Assembly (NCBI GenBank): GCA_030141605.1
Contig: JAQGDQ010000379.1
Coordinates: 1 to 64,000 of the forward strand
Length of the DNA: 64,000 bases
Reading direction: 5' to 3'
DNA from: Tubiluchus corallicola
Lineage: Eukaryota; Priapulida; Priapulimorpha; Priapulimorphida; Tubiluchidae
The notes under the pieces are model-generated. The model ran no database searches. It was given only the letters and a program-made list of their open reading frames with translations, and had not been told where the DNA came from. How positions within the stretch are numbered: the first letter of the stretch is position 1; every line of letters begins with the position of its first letter. Positions 2,340 through 45,100 of this stretch are shown here, piece by piece. The position numbers were made by a program, and so were the translations under genes.

Positions 2340-5300
2340 TCATCCATGCTGCTTAAAATGTGTCATATTATCTGCCACTAGTCTGGCTAATACTGCTCCA
2401 TAATAGTCTATGACATAACTGGAACCGTCTGCTGGTCCAACAATCTAAAATGTAGCAAAATTATTTTTGTAACTGATAACAATTAGCAACTTTATTTTAC
2501 CCAATCATAGACATGTAGTGTTTACAAGTAGCACAAAAATAATCCAAATTCAAAGAGACCAAGGCAAAGGACATGTGAAAGATTGTAATAAAACAGGAAA
2601 TTGTAATTGATAATGCCTGTGAGACACCTACAAAATTTAGTAAATTCGACTTTTATAACAATTAACCTTAATCAATCTTGTTACAGAAACCAATTTAAAA
2701 ACTGTTATTCACCTAAATAGTTCATTCTCTTTGTACATTTTCCTAAATACAAACACTTTAAGGTACACACACTTACAATTAACTAAGCCAAGCTTCTTAC
2801 CTGTGTTGCTATGAGAATTATATCTACTAACTGACCCAGAAACATAAATCCAAGAGTGCAGAATTTGAGCAGACCTAGCCAAATAAACACAAAAAGCAGT
2901 TTCAATTTAGGCAAAATTACTGTTTGACTAACAGAATTTTCTGTGTCATTATACAATGATGCAGCACAAAATGACCGTACCATAGGTTTTAATGTATCTT
3001 AACAAAAATGAAAGAAAATTCTTGGTAAAATTTATATTGAGTCGATCACTGCCTTCCATTGCTATGTAATGCTCATTAACGTCTGCCATAAGATGAATTC
3101 TTCATGTTGACTGTAATGTGGATCTGATGTCCAACAAGTACAGTGCACTGGAACACTTACTTCATTCAGTTATAATAAAACTAACTAAGTTTCTTCAAAG
3201 AAAATTATGCAACTTTCATTTTGAATGCTTTAGATAACAAGTATGAGTTACTACAGTAAAAGTTCTGCTAGTCTCACATTCAGAATGCAAACAGACGTTT
3301 AACTGACATTTAAGCAGAAATTTAACTGTGTTGTGAAATTTGAGTAAACCATGGTAATGCGAACATTTTTTTATGAAAAAAAGAAAAAATTCATGCTACT
3401 AGCTAATATAATTTCAGCCTGAATGTAGCTGCAGCTTACCTATTGCAGGATATCCAAGATAGAATCTATCAACACCAAACATGCCCAGAAATATTGAAAG
3501 TAGCAGTGCTGTTTCAAAGGATTTTCCATTTCTGAAAATAAAAGCAATGAACTATAACATCAGCTGTATAAATTTCATGTGGTTTGCTCAATAGCTCCGT
3601 AACCATTTTTCAAATGTATACTAGCCAGTAGCAAACAACAATGTCACACATCTTCACACAGGTTGCAACATTATTACACATCTTTTACTACATCCCGGTA
3701 TCTTCACAACTTCGGAACCTTAATTCTGAAATTCAAAATCAAAGCTTTTGTACAAGGTTTCCACAGCAGGGCGATTTGTGAAACATTTCAAAGATTAGAT
3801 TAGATTAATTTATTTGTCTCATTTCATATACATATACACTAAGAAGATTGAAAATCATTGCCAGATATGTGAAAATATTAAGCGATATCAGAAAAAATGT
3901 GAAAATGTTAATAGTTATCAGAAAACTCTGAAAATATTAAAACTCATCAAAAATGTGGGAAAACGTTGAAAGACATTAGAAGACTTGTGAAAATTCTATT
4001 TCAAATATATATAAAAAATATTGGTAATTGACTCAAATAACTTCGCTTAATTGACTCAATGTTTTTCCTTCACGTACTTAAAATAAGACATTTGTATGTG
4101 CCCAAACAGCCTTTCCTACCTTCATGTCATCTTTACTAGCCTTTCGTACATTTTATATGTAGAAACAATCATGTTAAGTACCGTTTTGTTTGTAAACAGG
4201 TACGTTTATCATGCGCTAATACGCTAGCGTAGCGGTTTTGCTTTGAATCTGTTACCCGATGGCCCACGGCAATTAACCTCATTACCCAAAGAATTTCTGG
4301 AAGCTAAACATTTAATCACTTGCAGTAATACTACACCCATCGGCTAATTGGGTCAAAACACGTCGGTCCCAAAGTGAGTCTATTAAGCGGCGACTACTGT
4401 AACATGAAATCGGGTGTGAAAGTGTCATTTCCAAAGAAAGCCTGGAACCTGAGCTCGTTTGTTTTACTCGTTAGATGATGCCAGCAAAATTCAGTCTTTT
4501 GTTAGAGCAGCATTTGCGTTTGGTTATCACATGTCACCTTTCGTAATGTGGCATTGTTGACAAATTCAGCATCACAGAAATGACGCGGTATCCAAGGAAG
4601 ATGTTGGCAGGACATTTGTTTAGGCAGCGATTTTCCGAAATTTCACGAGCAAAAGCGACAAAATGTTTTGTGGAAAAATGCAACTTCGAAGCCTGATTTC
4701 ATTAGAAAGAAAGCCATGAAATTTAGTATAACTACTGTGAAATTTTAAATTAAAGTTAGCTCTTCTTACTAAAGAAAATTTGTTTTTATATTAAATTTAC
4801 CTTGAAAAGCAACTTAATAATTTCCCAGTTTAGAAAACAATTTCTTTGCCTCGTTCAACAACTACTATAGAATGTAGTTAGTTCATACAAAAGTTTTTAA
4901 AAGACAAGCAGAAAAAAACCAACAAGCTCTTACGAGCTGTTTAGACAATCAGTTTTTTGTCAAACTATCAGCTTGAGTTCGACAAATTAGTTTGATCGTG
5001 TAAACAGCGAAACTGACAAACTTTTTGCTTAACAAACAAGGTTTGATGGTAGCAAACCGTCTTGAATTCACCAATAAAAACTGACAAACTCAGACTCAAT
5101 AGCCAATAGCATCGCGTTCGTTACATCATATCAATTCACAGTCGTCAGAAATTTTGTCATTATTAATCCAGCAAGTGGTATAACTATACAACGATCAGCA
5201 CTGTTGCATGTTGGCTGATATTGGAACCTGTCGGGTAGAAACAATAATAATACAAAAGAGATTTTTATTTTGCTGACAGTAAAAAAGAAAATTCTGATTT

Positions 5301-7596
5301 TGTTGTATTGCTTTCTACCAGTCAACTAAACAATTTGCAACAGTACTATAGGGGTGTTATACAGGCATTGGTTAGTTAAATTGAACTTCTTACTATAAAT
5401 ATTCAAACACCTTAACATTTAAATCTTTGAAATCAGGCCGTAACTGCCTTTTCCAATTCTTCGTTGTAGTTATTTTTTTCATCTGAACTTTTCTATTCGA
5501 ACAAGCTAACCCAATATAGAACAACAAAACACGTCTGCATATTGACGCCATAATTTGATGGCCACTCTTTGCTGAACAGTTATTACCAAAGTTTGATGTC
5601 GTCTAAACATGTGTCAGTTTTTGTTTTGGTTTGACAGTTTAAAAACTGATCATGTAAATGGTACCTTACGAACAGAACAGTGATAATTCATATTAATGGT
5701 AGCACTACTAAGCAGGAGAATAGGAGCCACTTCTAAATGTCATTAGTAAATCAAACTTAATCAAAATTCACCAACAAAAATTAACAAAATATGGAACAAA
5801 TTAAGAATCAGCAGAAAAGCAATAATAACATAAAGAAATTACATGCCCAAGCATAAGAAAGTGATTCAAGTATACGCAGTTTACCGGACCTTGCTTTTAC
5901 GGATATCGGAAGAATTGGACAAAATCTGGACAGCTAAAAAGTCCCACATACTACTTACACAGTCCATTTTTTCACGAGTTGACCACTAGTTGTTTACTTT
6001 GTTTACATCACTAAATCGGTGTAACCAGTGCAGTGGACGAGCAGGTAACACAGGTTCAAAGCAAACCCGCTAGGCCAGCACAATTATTAGCACATGATAA
6101 ACCTTGCTTACAAACAAGCTGTACCTAACATGATTGTTTCTACATATATTATAGTGCACAAGAGCAAAGTAAAACGACATAAAAATAGTAAAAGCTCACT
6201 GGTCACACAAAAGCATCTCATTTAAGCATGTGTAAAAAAATATGCGGAATGATAGTAAATATTAGAATGACTCATCATAGATTAGTCAGACTTTATGACG
6301 TGTGTTGCACTGTGACAGCCAAAAATTACTTACGTCCATTTGCATTTCACTGGCATCTTGAATGTTCTTTCTGCTGACAATTCTGAGCACTCAATGCCTG
6401 GTGCTGGCATACAATCCACTAAAACAGTAAAATAACACATTGAAAGAAAGCAAGATAAATATTGAATTTATCTTTTCTTAAATTCTTTTTGCAACAAAAT
6501 ATGCGAAATTATGAAAAAACAAAATGTTGTTGATGTCGATGAAAAATATGATGATAGTGATGATTATGATAATGATGGTCATCATTATCATGATCGTCAT
6601 AATCATTATCATAATCACCAATATCATCATATCTTTCATTAACATGATCATCATTTTCTTTATTTCAGTCAAAATAAAGTATGAACCATAGAGAACTAAT
6701 CTAAAACATAGAGAAAGCTTAATATGTAAAATAATTGCATGTATAAAATCGATATAGTTAAAAGGCCTACAAAAGCATAAAATGGGATATAATAATACAA
6801 ATTAGCAGACTACTAGATATGCTTGTTTTCAACAAATGTTAAAACTATCTCACCACATATCTGTATAATTATTTAGATATTAACAGTACATTAGACTGCC
6901 TTACCTAGTACTTCAGCATAACTGCTGTTGATTCTTTTGCAATCAATAGGTTGCTGTGTAATTGGATCTATTTCCGGATCCGAGCACATATATGTGATGC
7001 AAAAAGTAAAGGAAATATTTTACTCTAATATCATGCAAACAAGAATAATTGAACTACCTAATTAACTTTCTTTTGCTATTAGGCTCATTTAACTTTATTT
7101 GTTTTGCATGCAGCTTTCTGATAATGACAAGAAAGATTAGTCTGTTATAACACGTTTCAGATAGTGCAGTCAGATTGCTGTATGATGTATGTACTAAATA
7201 GCATAAAATTTCGTTTAATTTATGATAACCAAGTAATTTTGCATTGTGCAGGTGTTAATCATGCCTTGTCAGTGACAAAGCAATCTTACTTTGACAAAAA
7301 CAAAAACAAAAAGTATGTACATAGCCCAGGATGTAAAGGGATGTAAATGAACCATTTTACATATTTTAAAAATGGTTAAAAAACCAAATGAGCTAAACAT
7401 GTTCAGTGAGGCATGATCATAAACAATTACAAAATGTTGCAAACTCTATTAATTATGTGTAGGATAGGATTTTATAACTTTACACACAAAAAGGATATTG
7501 TCCCACGAGTAATTTACTGCACTCCTCTGAAACAATGAAGATTGACTGCAGGAGAAAGTTCAGCAAAATCAAGTAGATAATCGTATAATAGTCCAT
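2340..7596 (-). CDS. TM2D1: TM2 domain-containing protein 1 (TM2D1), six coding exons
   Basis: Coding exons, 5' to 3' on the minus strand: 7596-7499, 6993-6905, 6418-6334, 3531-3440, 2874-2801, 2444-2340. They total 543 nt, 180 residues plus TGA, with every phase matching. The ATG at 7596 opens a hydrophobic signal peptide (about residues 5-23). A Cys-containing lumenal region follows, with the family motif VGQYMC (31-36). Then comes the TM2 domain: first membrane helix about 98-111, DRF motif at 112-114 followed by YLGYP, second helix about 122-143. The C-terminus carries the TM2D1 signature GPADGSSYVIDYYG. Human TM2D1 is about 207 residues, so this is a full-length orthologue. The family (Drosophila biscotti, human beta-amyloid-binding protein BBP) is linked to Notch signalling and phagocytosis; its biochemical role is unsettled. 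Intron 1 is AT-AC (separate entry). Intron 3 (3532-6333) is swollen by transposon copies. Confidence 0.94.
4020..4405 (+). mobile_element. dispersed repeat family R1, copy 1 (plus orientation)
   Basis: This stretch aligns with 8091-9084, sharing blocks such as AATTGACTCAATNTTTTTCC, a TTTATCATGCRCTAATAYGC block, and an end block AGTAATACTACACCCAT followed by GTCTATTAAG. It also aligns in reverse complement with 5880-6245. It lies in TM2D1 intron 3. No open reading frame is present, so it is probably a non-autonomous DNA element. The superfamily is not identified. Confidence 0.7.
4926..5675 (+). mobile_element. MITE-like element with diverged terminal inverted repeats
   Basis: The left end contains TTTAGACAATCAGTTTTT and the right end, read in reverse complement, contains TTTACATGATCAGTTTTT. 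Each is followed by a GTCAAAC-type subterminal block. The element lies between the two inverted R1 copies in TM2D1 intron 3 and has no coding capacity. Boundaries are approximate, and I could not fix a target-site duplication. Confidence 0.5.
5880..6245 (-). mobile_element. dispersed repeat family R1, copy 2 (minus orientation)
   Basis: The reverse complement matches 4020-4405 and 8091-8400, including TAGAAACAATCATGTTAGGTA (compare TAGAAACAATCATGTTAAGTA in copy 1) and a TTTATCATGTGCTAATAAT block. With copy 1 it makes a long inverted pair around 4400-5880. Confidence 0.65.
6534..6660 (+). repeat. degenerate ATG/ATC simple repeat
   Basis: A stretch of GATGAT, GATTAT and CATCAT words in both orientations, partly palindromic. 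It yields a Met/Ile-rich false frame on the minus strand. It lies in TM2D1 intron 2 (6419-6904). Confidence 0.75.
6994..7498 (-). other. TM2D1: U12-type AT-AC intron (TM2D1 intron 1)
   Basis: On the minus strand the intron begins ATATCCTTTT directly after GTGGGACA, an exact U12 donor. It ends GCATCAC before ATATGTGC. No AG occurs where the exon must begin, so a GT-AG solution cannot keep the conserved VGQYMC motif. A branch-site match TTCCTTTAC (7014-7006 on the minus strand; consensus TTCCTTRAY, one mismatch) places the branch A 13 nt before the 3' splice site, the distance typical of U12 introns. Joining the exons gives phase 2 and restores the Q-Y-M-C residues of the family. Length is 505 bp. 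Confidence 0.9.
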
Positions 7597-8090
7597 AGTC
7601 TGTTTGTCCAAATTACAACATCAGATAAAATGCACTCGCATAATCCACCGCAACAGATTTCTTGGTAGCTGTAAAAAAATAGCGATCACTGCTCATGCTC
7701 ACACTTCCACGTCTTCAAATTGTAGGTGAGCCCATAGCCTGAAAACGACAGAACTGGCTGAATCCACTTCAAACAAAAATGACTGAAAATTTTACCCGAA
7801 ATGTGAACAAACTCACCAAAAACCAAATTTACACCCTATGTAACCACAGCAAAACTTGACCGAATAATAAAAGCCCAAACATTTGATGCAAAAATTTGTA
7901 AGATTTTTTCATCCATAAAAACAGGCAAGTTTTAAAACTGCTTTTCATTTAATAATGGATGTTGTTGCAATATAATTATAATAAGAACATCTGGAGCCTA
8001 AAAACTGAGATTAAATGTCAGGAATTCATACTGTATTTAGGTTTGTAATGACACATACTGACAATAGATCTTAGGCTTCCATAAATGCAG
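7597..8090. other. 5' flank of TM2D1
   Basis: This stretch must contain the TM2D1 5' UTR and promoter. I see no TATA box or CpG-rich patch that stands out, and no open frame with coding character. Confidence 0.4.
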
Positions 8091-9084
8091 CCTCCCGGCA
8101 ATTGATTCAAATAACTCTGCATAATTGACTCAATATTTTTCCTTCACATACTTAAAATGAGGTATTTGTGTGTGACCAAAGGGGTTTTATAGCTTTTGTG
8201 TAACCTTTACAGCGCTTTTATGCACGACAATGTATGTAGAAACAGTCATATTAAGTTTAGCTTCGTTTTTAATCATGTTTGTTTATCATGCACTAATATG
8301 CTAGGGTAGTGGTTGTGCTTTGAATATGTCGCCAGCTCGTCCACTGCAGTTAACATCGTTTCCTGGAATCACTTCCCCAGGAATTTGTTTTTTAAGTTCC
8401 CGCTGCTTTTTGCAAGGGAAACAAGGTCATTATCAACTGCAGCCCAAGCATAAGGCGACTAGGTGTATTTATTGTAATTGCTACTTGTAAATTTTGCAAA
8501 ATGTAGATGTTGTGTTTTATTCTTATAATGTTTACAGCTGTAGTTCTTCATTACGTAGACTTGGGATTAAATGTTTACCTGTTGTGTGCTTTTTTGGTTT
8601 TCATGTGTTAGGTAAAAATTTTGTACATTTCTCTGCAATTTCTTCCACTACAACCTAGTTTATTTTGATAAGTTAAATTCTAAGTTTGATAATGGCTATA
8701 GTAGTCGAAACGATCGTCGTTCAATAAACATGTTAATATTAAATTATTATTATTCGTTTTTATTAATGCACTTATATAAGTTAGTATTCTTAATTTACTA
8801 ATTTACAGAAATTTAGGAAATTCATTTCTAACATTCATTTAAAGCCTTTGCAATGCATATTACTGATACTAACCTGATAAGCGATGACTCAAACTTCTAC
8901 GTTAGTAATACTACACCCATAGCCAAAACCGTGAAGCCAGCTGAGTTACTAAGTTTGAAAGGTAATTTTAAAGGTAATAGATTCAGCTAATAAGTCAACC
9001 AATAGATTCAGCCGGTGAATTAAAAAATTGGTTCAAAGCACTTTCATTCCGAAGTGCGTCTATTAAGGGCCACTTACCGTATAT
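8091..9084 (+). mobile_element. dispersed repeat family R1, copy 3, interrupted
   Basis: The left part (8091-8395) and right part (8905-9084) match consecutive blocks of the short copy at 4020-4405. The roughly 500 bp between them have no counterpart there, so they are a later insertion. The right end GTGCGTCTATTAAGGGCC matches the GTCTATTAAGCGGC end of copy 1. Confidence 0.65.
8396..8904 (+). mobile_element. retroelement 3'-end-like insertion with ATT tail
   Basis: The insert inside the R1 copy carries GTAGTCGAAACGATCGTC, then TCAATAAAC and an ATTATTATT run (8743-8755). This layout resembles the 3' region of Penelope-like or related retroelements. A degenerate hammerhead-like fold spans 8686-8718 (see findings). 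No reverse transcriptase frame survives. The assignment is tentative. Confidence 0.35.
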
Positions 9085-9203: not shown

Positions 9204-11570
9204 TAGGGCTGAGCATCGAACGTTCGAATTCAATTCGAATGAGTTTTTTAAGTTCGACTTCGATTCGAACCTAAAATTATAGATTCGAATAATTCAGCAG
9301 TTCAGCCACACACGTTCTTTATCATTAAAATGTTTGAAGCAGTACGCAATTAACACAATTTAACTGCAGTTTCTGTGCAAAACTTTTAACAAACTAATAG
9401 TGGTGTAGGGAGCCGAGTGGACCACTGAGCCAAGTAGACCACTTCCGGTAAAACCGATGTGCTAAAAGTAGTGTCCTACATGGGCAGCCCAAGTAGGACA
9501 CTAGCGATTTTTGTCGAGAATCGGTAATTTTGTCAAATTTTTGAAAATTCTGTGAAAGTTTCTTCATTTTATTAAAAATTGTGCTTGTTGGTTGAGTTGT
9601 CGTCATTTCAGCTATGTAGGCAAACAGAGAGGCTCTGGCAAAACTTGTTTCCAGTTTACATTACCAATGTTTATAAGTATTGTTATGACATAATAAAACA
9701 TAAAACAAAATTTCTTTTAGAAATGGATATTCCTTGGCAATTTACAAATGCATTTCTTACAATAATTTCATCATTATGATTAACTCCATTAATATATCAT
9801 AACATTAAACCTAGTATCTAATGCTTTAAAGAGAGAAATTCTGCACACAGTTATTACAAAAATAATTGCAAATTTAAAAATGAGACAGATAGGTAGCCCA
9901 AGTAGGACACTAGAGACAGGTCGCGAATTGAGTCGTTAAGTGTACTGACACCGTCCGTTGTGCTTGTTTATGTAATAATAATAATTAAAAACGTTAGTAC
10001 ACGTTGAATAATTTATTATACATCTAATAAAATAAAAGAATTTTATTCTGAGCTGGTAGAAGCACCGCGAGGCGGTCGAGAGGTTGGACTTAATTAGCTC
10101 ACCAAAAATTTTTTTGATGGCTACCTTGCCTTTGAAGCGATCAATTTATGCCCACTCCTACATACACACTGTGATTGCTATTGTTGGGAGCCGAGTGGAC
10201 CACTGCGCCAAGTAGACCACTTGATGCGCTAAAAGTAGTGTCCTACATGGGCAGCCCAAGTAGGACACTAGCGATTTTTGTCAAGAATCGGTAATTTTGT
10301 CAAATTTTTGAAAATTCTGTGAAAGTTTCTTCACTTTATTATTTACAGAAATAATTGCAAATTTAAAAATGAGACAGATGCTGCTAAGCCTTCAGAACAC
10401 CAAAAAGTAATTTTTAACATTTAAGAAAAGCAAGGATAATTAGTTTTAATATTATCAGTAGTATTGTAACATGTAGGGCACTGTCCTACATGGCTCGCTA
10501 GTCCATGTAGGACACATAGATTGCTAGAACGTTTACTTATAAGAAAACAATTATTTGCCCAAGAGGTAGTGAAACGGATCACCTGTTTGTGAAGTGAGAC
10601 AAAATCAAAAATTATATACCTTAAACAAATTTTGTATTCTCAAAAAAGTGGTTTTTTTCACTTCAACAACATTAATATCGAAACCAAATTTAATATTGTC
10701 CGTTCTACCAGCTCAGAATAAAATTCTTTTATTTTATTAGATGTATAATAAATTATTCAACGTGTACTAAGGTTTTTAATTATTATTATTACATAAACAA
10801 GCACAACGGACGGTGTCAGTACACTTAACGACTCAATTCTCGACCTGTCTCTAATGTCCTACTTGGGCAGCCCAAGTAGACCGCGGTCTACTTGGCGCAG
10901 TGGTCCACTCGGCTCCCAACACTATTTCAGTTCAAAATCAATTTTCGTTTTGTTTTGAAAATATCAGTTTGTTCATAGGGCAACATCGCTATAACAAACC
11001 AATATTTTTCATACACACTGAGGATTTGGAATTAATGTTAGAAAAATTTATCAGCTGCATTTTTATAAACATGTTTATGCAATTCAAGTAGCAAAATATT
11101 TGACTGAATTACCAATGCACTTTCACAGAATGCAATACAAAATAAAAATAAATATGACTATGGAAACAATAATAAATACGAGCAAAGTAAATAACAGGCT
11201 AAGCTACAACAATATTACAAAATAACATTTTGGTTGGGACTCAAAAAACTCAAAAAAGTTATTACTAGTAACACAATAAACCAAAACTTGACAAAAGGCA
11301 AAACTTGACAAAAGTTCATAAACACTGGAATGTTCTCACTTAATATTTAAGTCTACAGCTAAACAATCCTACATCTAACACCTACATTTATCGCTAGTGT
11401 CCTACTTGGGCTGCCCATGTAGGACACTACTTTTAGCGCATCAAGTGGTCTAATTGGCGCAGTGGTCCACTCGGCTCCCAGCACATGATCTTTTTAGGAC
11501 CATTTCTACTAGTGGTTCGAAAATCTTTCAAACTCAATTCGAATTCGATTTGGATTCGCTCACCCCTAGT
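9204..11570 (+). mobile_element. hAT-like MITE (TTCGAA-rich family), split by a later insertion
   Basis: The left part (9204-9404) starts TAGGGCTGAGCATCGAACG and the right part (11482-11570) ends GCTCACCCCTA. Together they match the intact copy at 12133-12522. The flanks GGAACCAA and GTGACCAA are an 8-bp target-site duplication with two changes, as expected of an old hAT insertion. The 2.1 kb in the middle belong to a different element (9405-11481). Confidence 0.75.
9405..11481 (+). mobile_element. palindrome-rich nested DNA element
   Basis: The ends are GGGAGCCGAGTGGACCACT (from 9408) and its inverse at 11462-11479. A second, inner copy has the same ends at about 10183 and 10920. The region 9893-10105 is the near-perfect inverse of 10708-10880, so the whole can fold into a long stem. 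Short hairpin modules built on AGTGTCCTAC/GTAGGACACT recur at 9470-9502, 10237-10269 and 11396-11428, and a related one at 10482-10514. I see no transposase. It looks like a foldback-type non-autonomous element inserted into a hAT-like MITE. Confidence 0.7.
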
Positions 11571-30100: not shown

Positions 30101-33100
30101 TGCATCTGTAATGACAATCATTATTTCATTTAACACAGAAATATATTGCTGCAATTTTCCTTATAAAGTTAAAAACATTTTGACATACAAAAAAACCATG
30201 TCTGGCTTACTAATAAACTAGTCGAAAATGTGAAACGTTACGTTACTCGCAAAACAACAGCAACAACAAAAACATTTTGCACAATGTTGAAATGATAAAT
30301 GCTGATAAATCCATCCGCTAATAAATGTGATGACAAATGGTGCACAAACATTCTACACAGTCTTTGGTTACTCCTAAAATAACGGTAATAAGCTAAATGT
30401 TTGGTTGTCATAGATGCTAATTTTTGTGAAAATTTGAAATGTGCATTGTTTGCCTCGTAATGGTAAAATGGCAAAATTGTGTATTACATAAAGAACAACA
30501 GCAAGAACAAGGCCTTCGCCACAGCGAAACAAATATGTTTAAAAAACAAAGGTTACATTGCAAGTTAGCAACCCAACAAAAAGTTTTAAGTCAACGTCCT
30601 GGGTTAAAAACTAACTGTCTTACTGCTCTTTCTACATAAAATACAAAACTTTTGCTCAAAATACAGTATAATACATATTACCTAAACACTGCTGGTATAC
30701 GACTCTACTGTGTCATCATTTATACGTAGTCACTGCTTAGTAAAATCACTATGGGACCAGCAATAAGAGGTCTTAAAAGGTGGACGTTTTATTATATGGC
30801 AGCCTGTTGCAAGTGTATGTATTTGGCAAACTACAGTACGCTAACGCTTCACCCTAATTAATAGTGGATACATATGCATAAGTTGTTCATTTGCACCACC
30901 TTTACTTTTAACATCCATTCTGTAAAAACACATTTATGAATTGGTTGTCAATTCTAGCTAATTGTAGTTAGTTTTATTGTTCATTTTCGTAACCAAGGGA
31001 AGCTTTTGCGAGACACTTCTAATTGCATTTATTTTTCACTTCGATATTGCATTTGTCGCCTGTTACTGAAAAATGTGCTCTTATTAAAAAGCACACTGAT
31101 TTTGTTAGCGGAATTTTCTTAACAATAATTTCTACAGGGACAATTCTGGACAATGCACAAACAGTTCTAAAATACGTCTGGTTTTATTAGTAGTGACTAC
31201 TACACTAGGTTTTTGTTCTTTGTTTCTTGCTCCAACTATAATGACTTACACAGTTTTACACCTTGCTGATCATCGTCTAATTGTTGACTGTGTTGGCTAC
31301 TTTGCTGGTGGTTGATATATGATTACAAAATAAATATCTGGCTTCTAACCACAAGAACTACATACACAATTATTATATGTATCATGATTACATATACATA
31401 CATACATATGTACATATATACAACTATAGTATATATACAACTCTAGTATATATACAACTATACTAGAAAACAATGACAATATGAATAAGCCAACTTACCA
31501 CCAGGAGATTTTGGTGATTTAGGTGAACTGGCTACTTGGTTACCCAAATGTTGTTGTGAGGCACTGATTGTCAGTCGAACGGGATTATCGGCTCTTTTTA
31601 GTATCTCTAATGCCTGTAGAATAGTATCTCTATTTTAATTTTCCACAGTTAAATTTAATAACAAAAATTCATTAAATGGAAAATATGTACAGATGATACG
31701 CATTGAACAAAGAACAAATAAAGAATACATATGACTTTACAATCAAAGTTAAATTCAAAGCATCCAAAATACATCAGAATACAAAGGTTCTAACTCACCC
31801 TATCATAATCTATTTCGATAAGTGGGTCATCATTCACAGCAAGTAATCTATCCCCAATGCTGATATTACCAGCTTGATCAGCTGGTCCATTTTTCTCCAC
31901 ACTTCTCACATAGATGCCACTGTTACCCATACCATCACCGTCTTGAACTGTCAAGCCAAGGCCCATACCAGACTAGAACGGCACAACAACAAATTTTATA
32001 ACGCTGGTCTTCAAGTGGTAAAGTCCTGTATTTCACACAATATGTAGAAGAAAATAGAACAGACCAGAATGCAAAAGGAATAAAATAAGTGATTAGATAT
32101 TTATCTTTAGATGAATATTTAGATCAATAAGCTTTGAGATGGTATGCTACTGCACAACAACTCATTACTTTCAAGAGACCATATAATTTTCTTCAAAACA
32201 ACAAGATTTTTCCGGGTTGACAGATCATACTTATTATTACCAGTGAATCAAAACTCTATTACAGTAGATTCAAGGCTACTTATACACATAGTAATAATGT
32301 TAACATTTAACTGAAGTTAAACAGTTTGTTTACCCGTTTCTTTAAGACTAATGTTGAAACATTGGGAAATTCAGCAGGGAAATTGGGAACAACAGCTTCC
32401 TGGCCTCCCGCACTATCAACCTAAAATTAATGAATAAAGTGAATCACAGTTGCAGTATTCGTGAACACTGTTGCCTTCTAACAGTTAAAACTTGAACAGC
32501 TGCAGCAATAAACCACTGAAAAATGTTACCATAAACAAGTAATCAAGAATTAAACATACAAACATTGTGCAAACCTTTGCAGGAATACTCCCATAGAATT
32601 TAATAGGCTTTACGGCAAGTTCTTCCAGCGGTTCGTCTCTCCTGTAAAATAAATAATGAACAGAAGTTAAAGAATGATATTTAATTTATGAAAATAAAAG
32701 TAATTAATTTCATCAAGATCTGTAATATATAGAGCAGAATTCATTTTCATTTTTCTTCTTTATATGATTATTCAAAACATTAATTTGGTTTTAGGGACAT
32801 ACGGTCTTTGCAGTTTAAGTAAAACCATAAATTAGTTCAACCATAAACTAATGCCATGATGTCAAAATATTTTAATTTTAATTAAAGAGCCAAGAGATAG
32901 ACATCTGTAATGGCCTGGTTTTTTGAAGCCTGGTCCAGTCCATGTTCGCCAATTAGACGACAAATTCCGATGCGACCTCAAACTCAATAACTTTAAGGCT
33001 CATACCCGGGCTGCCCCATCGCGAAAAATCAATGGAAGCTCGTCTGAAAATCCAGCACCAGCTCTTACACATCAGCAAATCACTGTTCCTACACCATCTG

Positions 33101-36100
33101 TAGAGTAGTAGGTAACTTGTGCATAAACTGGATCAATTAAGAGAGTGGCTGTGTGCTTAACCTGCACCTCTGTAGAGTAGTAGGTAACTTGTGCATAAAC
33201 TGGATCAATTAAGAGTGTGGCTGTGTGCTTAACCTGCACCATCTGTAGAGTAGCAGGTAACTTGTGCATAAACTGGATCAATTAAGAGTGTGGCTGTGTG
33301 CTCAACCTGCACCTCTGTAGAGTAGTAGGTAACTTGTGCATAAACTGGATCAATTAAGAGTGTGGCTGTGTGCTTAACCTGCACCATCTGTAGAGTAGCA
33401 GGTAACTTGTGCATAAACTGGATCAATTAAGAGTGTGGCTGTGTGCTCAACCTGCACCTCTGTAGAGTAGTAGGTAACTTGTGCATAAACTGGATCAATT
33501 AAGAGTGTGGCTGTGTGCTTAACCTGCACCTCAGTAAAAATTAAGCCTGTATCTGATCATACCCGTCTTATTGCCCTATAATCCAGCTTTTACCCAAATG
33601 CTCATGCAGGCCTCTAATTCAAGTTATAGGGTTAAACGTATTAAAATTTTATTTCAATATTTTAAGCTGAGTAAGAATCAGATTTTGTAAAAAATTAAAG
33701 AAACAGTTCTTGGCAAACGCTTTTGCAGCTACTCATCTTACAGACCAGAAATTTAATCATCAATACAGCGGTATGAATGCCGCTCCTTTATCCCACTTAA
33801 TCATTACTCAAGTGCCAAAAATAATCAGCAACGATAGTGAAACACCGTGCCAAAGAATCAGACTGAAAACAAAATCTGCATGTCTGAGCAAACTGCAATC
33901 TAACGAACGAAATTAATTTTAAACAAAAAAATATCATTCTAGTTAAGGTCAAAGTACCTTAGTAATATAATTTTCACTAAATTGCCTTTTAGTCCTTTTA
34001 TCATAGCTGATGCATTGAGATGGCTTCGTCCATACAAGACCAATCCATTCACCTAAACAAATAATACAATCTAAATAGCATTTTAATGATTTCTGGATTA
34101 TGCAAATACTCAACGGCTTTTTAATCAAGCAGTTTGGGTGAAATGTTTGCTCAAACAGAAAGCAAATTGCTGATTTAAACTAATAGTATTCTGCCTGTAA
34201 GGAGAAAATCTAGACATGACTGGGTTCAGCAAACGACTCTCATTGTTATATAAAAACTGCAAAAGAGCAAATTTAAATAATCTTCTTGTATTTAATACAA
34301 ATAAAGTAAGTGGCGTATCACCAACAATTTATTAACAATAAAAAGTTTGCAATCAGATGAAAAATCCAAAAACAAAATGGACTTTGCAGCATCTGTAATT
34401 ATTGTTCTCTATACAGTTGTAACACTGCAAGCTAGAATCAGCACTCAGTGACAGAGTCTTCTACTATTTGATGCTTGAGGTCCTATTAGAATCTAGCTGA
34501 TTGTCAAGGATAATCCACTAAGCTGTGACAGCAAAGGTGTCTTTGAACATCTTGATAGTTATACATCATCCCTCAGAAATAAAAGGGGACATAATCGGAG
34601 ATAAAACTGCCAAAAAGCAGTTTTTCCTATTTGTTACAATGCTAACTATGGTTACCTAATCACTTAGTAATCAAACCTTGTGTTACTTACTTTTAGAAAC
34701 CACATACACACCATACCACTGCGTGCAACAAAGATGTAAAATTTGATGCAAATTTGCAAAATTCTTACTTCTAAAAGTTCATCACCAATTTTGATTCTTT
34801 CGTCTTTAGCTGCCGCACCATCCGGATGCACCCCAACCACAAAAACGCTCATTTTACTGCGATCTTTATTGCCTGCTAAACTAAGGCCTAAACCCTTGGC
34901 TCCTTTTGTCAGTTCAACAACATGCAAAGCACCAGGTAGATCACCATATTTTGTTTTTATTTTTTCTGAAACAAAACAGTTAATAATCATTAATAGAAAA
35001 CACTGGACTCCCTACAGCTGGTTAAACGAATGGGCAGATTGGGACAAAATTTCGAACGATGAAAGAGCTGACCAAGGCAATGCATGTCGTGTCCTAAAAC
35101 TTTCTGGGGTGAAAGTTTGGTCCATGTTAAGGTTGATCACAGGATATGACTAAACTAAAAAATTCCCATCACTCCCAGTTGTGCAGTGTACTTTGCATTT
35201 AAATGATTTTGCCAAACATCACTGTGCAACAAAACAGGCTGTCAAGTAATACATAAAGCATAGAGCTTAACGATGGAATAAGCATGCAGTTGCTTTCTGT
35301 GTTATTTGTCTAGAGTTTATTAAGCTCTTCATAAAACCATTTTATTTTTGCTGACATTGAAACCAGTCAAGGAGGTTGAAAAATCCAGGACTGAAGCCAG
35401 TGAAGAGATTACAGTCCCTTTCTCAAATCCCACCCTTCCTAATCATTCAAATTACAGGAAGGGGTGAATATGACATCAATCACCTATCATTACACACCAG
35501 CAAATATAGCTAGGTAACAGATATCTCATTCATTTCCTCATTTTGCATTAATTTAAGAAAATACTCGAAACTGTTTGGAGAAAAGAATAAAACACTTTAT
35601 GCATGATTACTGGAAGCATAATGCCACCAGAAATGGAAGATGTTGAAGTACAGTGGTCGTTGCTTGATAAAACTACAGGTAATAAAACCAGCTGCATTTT
35701 AGAACCATTTAAGAATGGTTCAGAATTACCTCCATAGAAACTATTGTTAAGAGAATTCAGTTTATAACACCAGTGTGCCATAATGCTACATTTTTCAGTG
35801 ACAGACGACAAAGGCAATAGCAAATGAAAAAATAAAATGTATTATTGGTAGTTGGCCTGTACTGTGGTTTATCAATTGAGGGTTTACCAGGCTGTAAGAC
35901 AGAAAATAATTTTATCAGGAAAATCTGTAAAATTAAAGGCTTTGAAGCATATGAAGTGTAATAACAGTGATGGCTTCATTGGCCTTATTTTCTGAAAACT
36001 TAGCTAAAGGAAAACAGCACCGAATTTTAACTCACAATTCAAAATTACTAAAGTTATCTTAAGTTTGAGGAACTTGTTAAAATTTGCTGACTTTTTTACT

Positions 36101-39100: not shown

Positions 39101-42100
39101 TTAGCAATGACTGATAGTAATCGGTATAGATTCTTACAAGATTAGCTTAGAAATGTTAGTGATAAAGTGATTTTCATTATTAAGAAAGTCCAATTTTGGT
39201 TAAAACAACCGAGCAGTTTAGTCATTAGGTAACCACCAGGTGTACAGAAGCGGGCAAGTTTCCATGGTAACACAGCAAAAAATGAAGCAAGCAAACGTAA
39301 TCCTGGTAGATTTATACAAATTTAGAGTCGGCTTACTGTTGCTTTAACTTCATACAAAGTGCGATGTTTCTCGTGGCATAGATTTATTAGCGACGTGATC
39401 AGAATAGTTTCCAATTTAGATCAATGTATCAGGCTGACTAGGATAATATTTTGCTAATGCCAAATCTTATGTAAATAGAAAGCAACTTTCGCTTTTATGC
39501 TTTTTAAAATTTAAAGAGGAACCTGGGTTCTTATTTTACAAATTAATCACCAATTTTTTAACCATCCAACAAATTGTTGTATTTTTTAGAAGTAACTTAG
39601 TTAAATGAAAAATGAAAAATTCTTGCTTCAAAATTACCTTGACTTTGAAAAATGGCTTTACAAATGCACTGAATTAGCTAAAAAAGAAAATTTGCGTTTG
39701 AAAAAAGTTTAATGAAATCCGGCATGATGTGTGCAATCTTTATTAAAAACAAGACTTTTCAACTATCATCTCAAGCTGCACTGAAAACTTTAAAACGATA
39801 ATTGATCTAGCGAAATGTCTTGTATTTAAATTTAAAAACATTTAAAATGTCTAAAAACTATAAACCCCATAAGAAATAGGCTTCTGATGCTCATAAGTTC
39901 GTTGTTGCCTTTTGCCGGAACTGTCTTATTTTATGGTTTTTAAATGTGACGAATTTTAAATTTACACGCTATTAAACTAAGCATTAAAATGCCAGTTATC
40001 ATTTTCAATTAATTTTTAATTACAATAATAACCAGGAATTAAAACAATTAAAATTTCCCAATTTGAAAAACAATAGAAGAAACACGAGGCTTTCACTCTG
40101 TACTGTCTTCAGGACTCTCAATACACGACTTATACTCTTCAATATGATATTACAGCAAATCAGCACATTTCTACTCTTTTGAAACACCCGGTATATGAAA
40201 TGCGCTTGAATTATTACATTATCATGTAGCGGTACGGATCCATGCTAATTAATTTATATCATTAGAGGCAGGAGACTGGGAGTTTAATCTTAACTAATAT
40301 TCAGACAGTGCGACACGTGCAGTGATTAATGAGCAAACACTTCGTCAAGCCAACAACTTATTAAAATTTAATCACAGGAGCTCACAACAGAATAGCTGCT
40401 CAAGCAATAAACATGACTTAAATGAAACTTTAAGCGTTTCTAAACGAGCGGGCAACATTAATGCTGAAAAACAAAGCTTGCTTGAAAGCACTGGCAATGA
40501 AGGAAGTGTTTAAAAACTCTTTGACTTTAAAGACATCACACAACAAAATGCAACTCATCGTGTAAAAGTAGCACAAGGACCAGCGACGCTCAATGATGGC
40601 ACTATAATATTACTAACATATTCAAAATACATTCTTGGCCCAATAAACGTTGATGCAAACATAGAGATTTCTTTGTAAAGCTATGTAAGCAAAAAAGGAC
40701 ATAAAACTTAATTTACAGATACGGCTGACTAGACATTGGAATTTATTTAGCATAATCAACATCACTTAACGTAAAGTGCCAACTAAGGTTCTAAAACTTA
40801 ACTTTTTATCAATGTGCCCTGTTTTTACTTTACCCAATTTCAAAAATTCACTTTTATATCAGCTATATATGCTACACCTTAAATTTAGGATAATACGGTA
40901 TCACATTTAAATAAACGAGCAGAAAGTGTGTTGTTATAATATGTGGCCACCAAAAAATGCTAAAATATAAGAAATTGTGAAAAGCTTGAAACTAAGTACA
41001 CGCAATTTGCTGGGAATCTCCCAGTACTCCCTCAGGCGTCTTGATGTCGTTGAACACTACAAACAAGCACATTGTCTACACACTATCTTTGTATGCATAA
41101 CAGTGCTTTCCTTTTTAAGAAAATGTATTACAAACGTATTTCTAGTTTTTGTTAAACGTATAGTTTGCATGCCTTGTTGTGATGATGACAATCGCTGATT
41201 ACGTGTCACATAATTTGATACATAAATGTGAGCAATAGTTTTAATCTGATTTATCAACATGTTCATGTTCTGGAATTTGGAAATGCTCGTTTCTCAACCA
41301 GTACAGCACATGTGGGTGCGCCATGCTTGTCTTCGCAAAACCTTATTGAACATGCACAGGTTTTACCCTTTGTTGAAGGATTTGGCTTCATTAAAACGAA
41401 AGCAAAGACGCTCAACTGCCCCCAACAATCTGGACAGATCAATAATATATTGAAGTTGGACAGTAAGCTAGAAGATAAATCAAGTGCATTCAAGTGTATT
41501 GGCAAGCAAATACAGCAGAGAAGAGACACGCGTCACAAACGTTTAATTACAACATCGTCATGCAGACAGAGATTGAACAGAAGCTCTTATAACACCAATA
41601 ACGCATGTAGACCAAGCAGTTAATTAATAAATCACGTCAATTAATCAATCTTGCAGTCTGAGAAGGCACTAATGTTGCCATATGATGGGAATATGTGCAC
41701 TTGTGGTTGGTGTGTCACAACTGTAACACTAATGTGTTTGACTAAAATTAAGTCACGTAGATGGTAAATGACTGCAAATTTTGCTTTCTTGTGCAGTAGA
41801 AATAGCCAGCAAGCTGTAGAAATTAATACTGTAATAGTAAAAGGCTTTTCAGCTAGGTGCTACATAAGACATAAGTATGAATAGTAGTGATTGGAAGACT
41901 GATCAGCTAGGTGCTACATAAGACATAAGTATGAATAGTAGTGATTAGAAGGCTGATCAGCTAGGTGCTACATAAGACATAAGTATGAATAGTAGTGATT
42001 AGAAGACTGATCAGCTAGGTGCTACATAAGACATAAGTATGAACAGTAGTGATTAGAAGACTGATCAGCTAGGTGCTACATAAGACATAAGTACGGATAG

Positions 42101-45100
42101 TAGTGATTAGAAGACTGATTAGCTGGGCGCTACATAAGACATAAGTATGAACAGTAGTGATTAGAAGACTGATCAGCTAGGTGCTACATAAGACATAAGT
42201 ATGAATAGTAGTGATTAGAAGACTGATCAGCTAGGTGCTACATAAGACATACGTATGAATAGTAGTCATTAGAAGACTGATCAGCTTGGCCCTACATAAG
42301 ACATAAATATGAACAGTAGTGATTAGAAGACTGATCAGCTAGGTGCTACATAAGACATAAGTATGGATAGTAGTGATTAGAAGACTGATCAGCTTGGCCC
42401 TACATAAGACATAAATATGAACAGTAGTGATTAGAAGACTGATCAGCTAGGTGCTACATAAGACATAAGTATGAATAGTAGTGATTAGAAGACTGATCAG
42501 CTAGGTGCTACATAAGACATAAGTATGAACAGTAGTGATTAGAAGACTGATCAGCTAGGTGCTACATAAGACATAAGTATGAATAGTAGTGATTAGAAGA
42601 CTGATCAGCTAGGTGCTACATAAGACATAAGTATGAATAGTAGTGATTAGAAGACTGATCAGCTAGGTGCTACATAAGACATAAGTATGAACAGTAGTGA
42701 TTAGAAGACTGATCAGCTAGGTGCTACATAAGACATAAGTATGAATAGTAGTGATTAGAAGACTGATCAGCTGGGTGCTACATAAGACATAAGTATGAAC
42801 ATTAGTGCTTAGAAGACTGATCAGCTAGGTGCTACATAAGACATAAGTATGAATAGTAGTGATTAGAAGACTGATCAGCTAGGTGCTACATAAGACATAA
42901 GTATGAATAGTAGTCATTAGAAGACTGATCAGCTGGGCGCTACATAAGACAGAAGTATGAATAGTAGTGGTTAGAAGACTGATCAGCTAGGTGCTACATA
43001 AGACATAAGTATGAATAGTAGTGATTAGAAGACTGATTAGCTGGGCGCTACATAAGACATAAGTATGAACATTAGTGGTTAGAAGACTGATCATCTAGGT
43101 GCTACATAAGACATAAGTATGAATAGTAGTGATTAGAAGACTGATCAGCTAGGTGCTACATAAGACATAAGTATGAACAGTAGTGATTAGAAGACTGATC
43201 AGCTAGGTGCTACATAAGACATAAGTATGAATAGTAGTGATTAGAAGACTGATTAGCTGGGCGCTACATAAGACATAAGTATGAACATTAGTGATTAGAA
43301 GACTGATCATCTAGGTGCTACATAAGACAGAAGTATGAATAGTAGTGATTAGAAGACCAGTTAGGTGCTACATAAGACAGAAGTATGAATAGTAGCGATT
43401 AGAAGACTGATCAGCTAGGTGCTACATAAGACAGAAGTATGAATAGTAGTGATTAGAAGACTGATCAGCTAGGCGCTACATAAGACATAAGTATGAATAG
43501 TAGTGATTAGAAGACTGATTAGCTAGGTGCTACATAAGACATAAGTATGAACAGTAGTGGTTAGAAGACTGATCAGCTAGGTGCTACATAAAACAGAAGT
43601 ATGAATAGTAATGATTAGAAGACTGATCAGCTAGGTGCTAAATAAGACATAAGTATGAATAGTAGTGATTAGAAGACTGATTAGCTGGGCTCAGCCAACT
43701 GAAACTGTCCTAAAAACACTAGCATGAAAAGCCAAACCCTTAAATACAACAACAGTTAACATAAGTGCCCTTATAAAGACAATTTCATTAACATTCTGTA
43801 AGATAAGTACTTAGAAGCTTCCAAACCACAAGAACTGGTAGAAACTTGGATAGAGCTTAATGTGTTATGACACATGTTCAACAGCAATAAGTCTACTTCT
43901 GTCATCAGCTGGTAACAGCGCAAAAATCAGTGATGCATTAGACACGATAAACATGAAGCTGTTGTTGAAAAGTTGTGCGAAGATTGAAAGATCGAACAAA
44001 AGGTTAAATGATCATTGAAGATTATAAACATTCAACTAGAGAATTTTCAGAAGTTTTAGTGCACATGGTGCGGTTTCAATCAGGTTATTACTCACATAAA
44101 ACTCAGCAGTAAAAACTTTAAGATAAATCAATGATGATGGAAACAAACTGTTTTCAAAACATGTTGGCAATTTGGCTGTATGGCAAATTTGTTTAATATG
44201 AGAAGCGAACACCTTGAAGACAGGAATTGCCTGAATGATGATGGATTATTTCCCTGGTGATTGATCAACTGTATTGTAAATTTTTAGTATCTAATTATTT
44301 ATAGCATTTTCTATATTTTGGATTACTTACTTATAATTCTAAAAATTAATACTGTTTCCTAAATAAACTGACAACATTAATTTTCATGCCAACCAGTATG
44401 TAATGATATATTTTCTATATTCGGTAAAGGATAGCAGACTAGGTGACTTTATAGTCTTTTCGCTATTCTTTCTCCTAGTTTTGTAACTATCTATTATAAC
44501 CAGTCTTCACAAATTACTGTTCATCCTGTTATTATCAACTTTCTATTGTACTGCTCAAAAAATATAAACAAATTGAAAATGAATTAAATTGAGTGAATTG
44601 AGTAAAACGGAATTATTTCTAAAATAATCATTTCCAGGAAAACTGCAAAATGTTTACATTTGCACTTCTTAAATACTGAAAGAACGTGTTTTAGTTAAAA
44701 TATATTAGCCAAGATACCAAAAATACGAGGAAGCGCATTTTCCTGTTTGACTAGTGGTATAAACCGACATAAACTGAAAATTTGAATTCAAAGACACTGC
44801 AAACGAGAATCCATAAATGTGTTCATAGTTTGCTTGCAACAAATAATTTTTTCAGTTTGTCCTTTATAGGCTTATTTTAATAATTTAACTTTTCATATTA
44901 TAATTGTGCAAATGAATTGATCTACAAATCTGCGCCACAAAGCAAAATGCAAGAAAATGTTTCAGTTCTTTTACTGTGTCTCCTCGGTCTAATAATTAGA
45001 TTTGTGACATTTTTCCTGATTTGCTTGACTGAGTTTAGCAATCAGCTCAATGCTTTCTTTTGCAGTGAACCTAATTAGATCTTCGATTTTCCCCTGACAG

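Follow-up and report, generated by a model that had tools for sequence, protein, structure and literature searches.

The first intron of a TM2D1 gene on the minus strand of the 64-kb window (the whole stretch of DNA that was analyzed) belongs, with high probability, to the U12-type AT-AC class that the minor spliceosome removes, as predicted from its splice signals, the reading frame across it, and the resemblance of the product to TM2D1. The intron is located at 6994..7498 (minus strand), is 505 nt long, lies in phase 2, and is assigned to the U12 type by its sequence. These coordinates are exactly those given in the original prediction.

Structure and identity of the gene

The exons were located by eye on the sequence and then checked with a script. 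The gene is complete, with six exons on the minus strand (7596-2340), and the joined frame gives 180 aa and a stop codon. Exon 1 (7499..7596) was translated from an ATG, encodes a hydrophobic, signal-peptide-like N-terminus followed by C-x-x-L-x-VGQ, and ends in phase 2. Exon 2 (6905..6993), opening with YMCSDPEIDPITQQPIDC, was placed by translation and by alignment to a human TM2D1 sequence. Exon 3 (6334..6418) has GT-AG introns on either side, exon 4 (3440..3531) holds the start of the TM2 domain with the DRF motif, exon 5 (2801..2874) the second hydrophobic stretch of that domain, and exon 6 (2340..2444) includes the stop codon; all are on the minus strand. Introns 2-5 are all four GT-AG, and every donor reads GTAAG.

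The TM2 domain (PF05154) was matched in Pfam at residues 92-141 of the product (65.2 bits, E 6.1e-18, over the cut-off), and the alignment to human TM2D1 gave 50% identity, which upholds the original naming of the gene as TM2D1. The human sequence behind both the alignment and the motif used below is one that we take to be that of TM2D1; it was the sole animal TM2D1 compared. Common to the two proteins are VGQYxC, PAPxIxC, DRFYLGYPA, and QIVGPxDGSSYxIDYYG, and the VGQ of exon 1 is identical in the aligned human sequence. VGQYxC and the cysteine-rich ectodomain fit TM2D1, in an alignment made to the human TM2D1 alone. The likeness to TM2D1 (BBP; bisc/CG10795 in Drosophila) extends over the hydrophobic N-terminus, the ectodomain, the TM2 domain with its DRF, and the tail carrying the last of the shared motifs. 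Judged from these features, the minus-strand gene is TM2D1. The TM2D proteins are described as conserved in metazoans, and the family has been tied to Notch signalling in flies (PMC8714088). On account of this conservation, the TM2D1 gene points to an animal as the source of the window.

A PDB search with the TM2D1 product returned 0 matches up to E = 1, and a search of viral contigs returned 43 stretches fitting a pattern and 0 relatives. The search of genome contigs returned 217 stretches, including 180 relatives, and the best 80 of the 180 were all titled as prokaryotes. In this set of 80, 53 match from residue 90 or later (TM2 domain) and few reach residue 24-25; the prokaryotic relatives (best 80 of 180) are of no use for the position of the intron.

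The beginning of exon 1 looks like the start of a TM2D1 protein, given an upstream stop, a hydrophobic N-terminus, and C..L.VGQ. The in-frame stop begins 27 nt upstream of the ATG (7596), which stands in the context CAGACTATGG, and residues 7-21 have a mean Kyte-Doolittle hydropathy of 2.23. Such a hydrophobic stretch is expected, because a signal sequence is annotated in human TM2D1-3 (PMC8714088). An in-frame ATG is also present in exon 2, and translation could be imagined to begin at this codon, which encodes the M of YMC, under a promoter of its own, with exon 1 outside the gene. The product would then have no signal peptide, against the annotation of the human proteins (PMC8714088), and the hydrophobic N-terminus and the TM2D1-matching VGQ both come from exon 1; a start within exon 2 is thus considered extremely improbable. 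A promoter and terminator scan of 7400-8200 was uninformative, the consensus used being bacterial.

Splice signals of the first intron

The intron starts with ATATCCTTTT and finishes with TTTCCTTTACTTTTTGCATCAC, the last base of exon 1 being 7499 and the first base of exon 2 being 6993. The junction splits a codon in phase 2 (CA|A) and translates into VGQYMC, in agreement with the original prediction of a phase 2 junction restoring this motif. The phase also agrees with the bias of minor introns against phase 0, which averages 22% (PMC10639083).

The putative U12-type 5' splice site, ATATCCTTT (7490..7498, minus strand), matches the consensus RTATCCTTT (PMC2846911) at 9/9 positions, so that the donor had rightly been called exact. 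The putative branch site, TTCCTTTAC (7006..7014, minus strand), has 1/9 mismatch to TTCCTTRAC, a T at the usual R position, and its A is 13 nt from the end of the intron, within the optimal distance of 11-13 nt (PMC3584512); the earlier description as a near-consensus site 13 nt upstream was accurate. The 3' splice site is CAC (6994..6996, minus strand). The frame of exon 2 is shut on the upstream side by a TAA (7020..7022, minus strand), and no AG occurs between this TAA and exon 2; the final AG of the intron begins 31 nt before the intron end.

The pyrimidine fraction is 0.85 over the 20 nt that precede the final dinucleotide of intron 1, branch site included, and 0.60-0.75 in introns 2-5. 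U12 introns have been described as having no distinct polypyrimidine tract (PMC3584512), and on its face the pyrimidine-rich 3' stretch counts against the U12 reading, although it is partly the branch site itself. Folding of the intron RNA gave nothing notable (z -1.54, with 8/100 shuffles equally good).

AT-AC introns are also spliced by the major (U2) spliceosome, with known examples in sodium channel genes (PMC2831892). Those examples have G at +5 (PMC2831892), but intron 1 has C at this position and a donor that is 9/9 U12, and removal by the major spliceosome is therefore given hardly any weight.

The signals were compared with chance expectation over the 64-kb window. The donor ATATCCTTT was found once, with 1.02 expected from dinucleotide shuffles, and RTATCCTTT was found once, with 1.50 expected from shuffles. 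The U12 donor by itself is no better than chance and is not decisive, because about one is expected per window. The branch motif TTCCTTNAC occurred 5 times against 2.32 expected, and followed by YAC at 7-18 nt it occurred once against 0.75 expected. Donors were also paired with branch sites (at most one mismatch in the branch, a matching YAC/YAG end, and a span of 60-3000 nt). With a strict donor, 1 pair of donor, branch site, and matching end was obtained, where 20 order-1 random resamplings averaged 0.1; when the donor was allowed one mismatch, there were 10 pairs and the resamplings averaged 9.65. It is the coding constraint, not the donor count, that decides the significance of intron 1.

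Reading-frame test of alternative junctions

All cut pairs between exon 1 and exon 2 were enumerated that left an intron of at least 30 nt, with coding bases 1-60 and no fewer than 21 bases at the 3' side of exon 2 retained in every pair. Joins were searched for the motif G[QN][YF]xC(1-3 residues)DP. The motif was retained in 9 of the 1757 open in-frame pairs, and these nine are one alignment slid by 0 to 8 nt. Their termini are AT-AC, TA-CA, AT-AT, TC-TA, CC-AT, CT-TA, TT-AT, TT-TG, and TT-GT, the first five giving an identical protein, and standard spliceosomal ends (GT-AG, GC-AG, or AT-AC) are found only in the AT-AC pair. Counted by termini among the open pairs, the motif was retained in 0/7 GT-AG, 0/1 GC-AG, and 1/8 AT-AC pairs. 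The GT-AG, GC-AG, and slid junctions were rejected, as no standard-ended pair outside AT-AC retains the motif. AT-AT is a known non-canonical minor intron type (PMC10639083), and the AT-AT slide of this junction would need the donor ATCCTTTTT.

A U2-type GT-AG splice would run from one of the GTs in TTTTTGTGTGTAAAG, just within the proposed intron, or from a GT in exon 1, to an AG inside exon 2. Seven open in-frame GT-AG pairs exist, and TGT|GTAAAG is like a U2 donor, its open pair reading VGQYPFC. All seven pairs, however, delete at least 26 nt of the start of exon 2 (YMCSDPEI) and lose the motif, and the exact U12 donor with its well-spaced branch site would have to be a coincidence; such a splice is judged very unlikely. 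The original prediction had stated that there was no usable AG, which holds for joining YMC; AGs at least 26 nt into exon 2 do join openly, but the motif is lost.

A U2-like donor, GTAAAG, is located at 7478-7483 (minus strand), 15 nt within the U12 intron. A twintron was not supported: the single open GT-AG partner of GTAAAG reads VGQYPFC, and the SDPEID part is lost.

The junction is best read as a U12-type AT-AC intron, because this is the only motif-keeping pair with standard ends, the GT-AG pairs lose the motif, and a TAA shuts the frame upstream of exon 2 with no AG separating the two. The original classification as AT-AC and, by sequence, U12-type was sustained.

From established knowledge of minor splicing, U11 would pair with the donor ATATCCTTT, U12 would pair with TTCCTTTAC, putting the branch A at 13 nt from where the intron ends, and U4atac/U6atac.U5 would complete splicing at CAC, making the CA|A join that yields VGQYMC. 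If the intron were retained, translation would give a 38-aa peptide stopping at a TAA (7480..7482, minus strand, read 7482-7480; computed from the sequence), and full-length TM2D1 should therefore depend on minor splicing. Slow or failed minor splicing would be expected to lower TM2D1 output. Rfam, at its gathering scores, returned 0 matches in the 64-kb window, the minor snRNAs included, and ARAGORN returned 0 genes there.

Known minor introns and the surroundings of the gene

Intron 1 is like the U12-type AT-AC introns of animals in its 9/9 donor, its branch motif TTCCTTNAC with the A 13 nt from the end, its CAC end, its non-zero phase, and its being the single minor intron in a gene whose several other introns are major. 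It differs in having T as the branch R and in the pyrimidine-rich 3' end. The AT-AC introns of Trichinella spiralis have a like layout, ATATCCTTTC...TTCCTTAAC...TTTAC (PMC2846911 Table 1), but are in other genes and have a consensus branch site (PMC2846911). Intron 1 looks like a real, ordinary example of a well-known intron class, one more well-supported instance.

Two general statements of the original prediction were right only in part. Nematodes had been excluded as having lost such introns, which is true of C. elegans, though not of nematodes as a whole: T. spiralis has U12 introns and the corresponding snRNAs (PMC2846911), and U12 splicing is described in "some but not all nematodes" (PMC3584512). 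AT-AC introns had been called rare, as they are among all introns, but in humans about 26% of minor introns are of this kind (PMC10639083).

Among the papers listed by a literature search, none suggests that a minor intron in TM2D1 has been reported; this is weak evidence, since databases and supplements are where such introns are catalogued. CG10795, the fly TM2D1, is absent from the 19 U12 introns of D. melanogaster in Table 2 of PMC2831892, and the word "intron" is absent from the fly TM2D paper (PMC8714088).

PDZ fragments adjoin TM2D1 (23811-60293, minus strand) and are probably parts of a single multi-PDZ gene. Ten ORFs of the window were run against Pfam, with a PDZ domain in 4/10 and no match in 6/10, and a motif scan gave three further PDZ-like pieces. 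Three of the PDZ fragments were compared with PDB sequences. For the fragment near 60 kb, the best match was InaD-like protein (PATJ) and the second MPDZ; for the fragment near 24 kb, the top single-domain match was MPDZ, ranked below a DLG4 chain that matched in three stretches; and for the fragment near 31.9 kb, DLG4 and afadin outranked InaD-like. The putative multi-PDZ gene thus resembles PATJ/MPDZ in part, and its identity is not uniform, because near 31.9 kb DLG4 and afadin match better than InaD-like. TM2D1 and INADL are adjacent in a list of human 1p32p31 genes (PMC5618647); this adjacency and the PDZ gene found here therefore suggest, but do not prove, an old linkage between TM2D1 and a multi-PDZ gene. 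If true, the linkage would back the orthology of the TM2D1 described here.

Repeats were also observed in the window. Nested inverted and direct repeats occupy 9403-11484, with inverted arms of 166, 94, 53, 42, and 40 nt that are 90-98% complementary, and carry the motif GGGAGCCGAGTGGACCACTG; the region resembles non-autonomous mobile elements joined into a composite. Tandem arrays are present at 41849-43686, inside the span of the PDZ fragments, where 34 copies of a 54-bp unit show 93% matches, and at 33088-33536, where the unit is 72 bp with 95% matches, or 145 bp with 98% when doubled.

With this finding, a gene of the Notch-linked TM2D family gains one well-supported minor intron. The general importance of the finding is small, because single animal genomes have already been shown to contain hundreds of minor introns (330 in Priapulus, PMC10639083). 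For annotation, a signal peptide could be concealed where a short first coding exon is followed by an AT-AC intron. A wider proposal is that the minor intron of TM2D1 at VGQ|Y, so far unreported, is ancestral to animals, making the signal-peptide exon of a Notch-linked membrane protein dependent on the minor spliceosome, with the 38-aa product upon retention; this is put forward tentatively, as plausible but rather doubtful. If animals had this position in common, TM2D1 would join the candidate targets of defects in the minor spliceosome.
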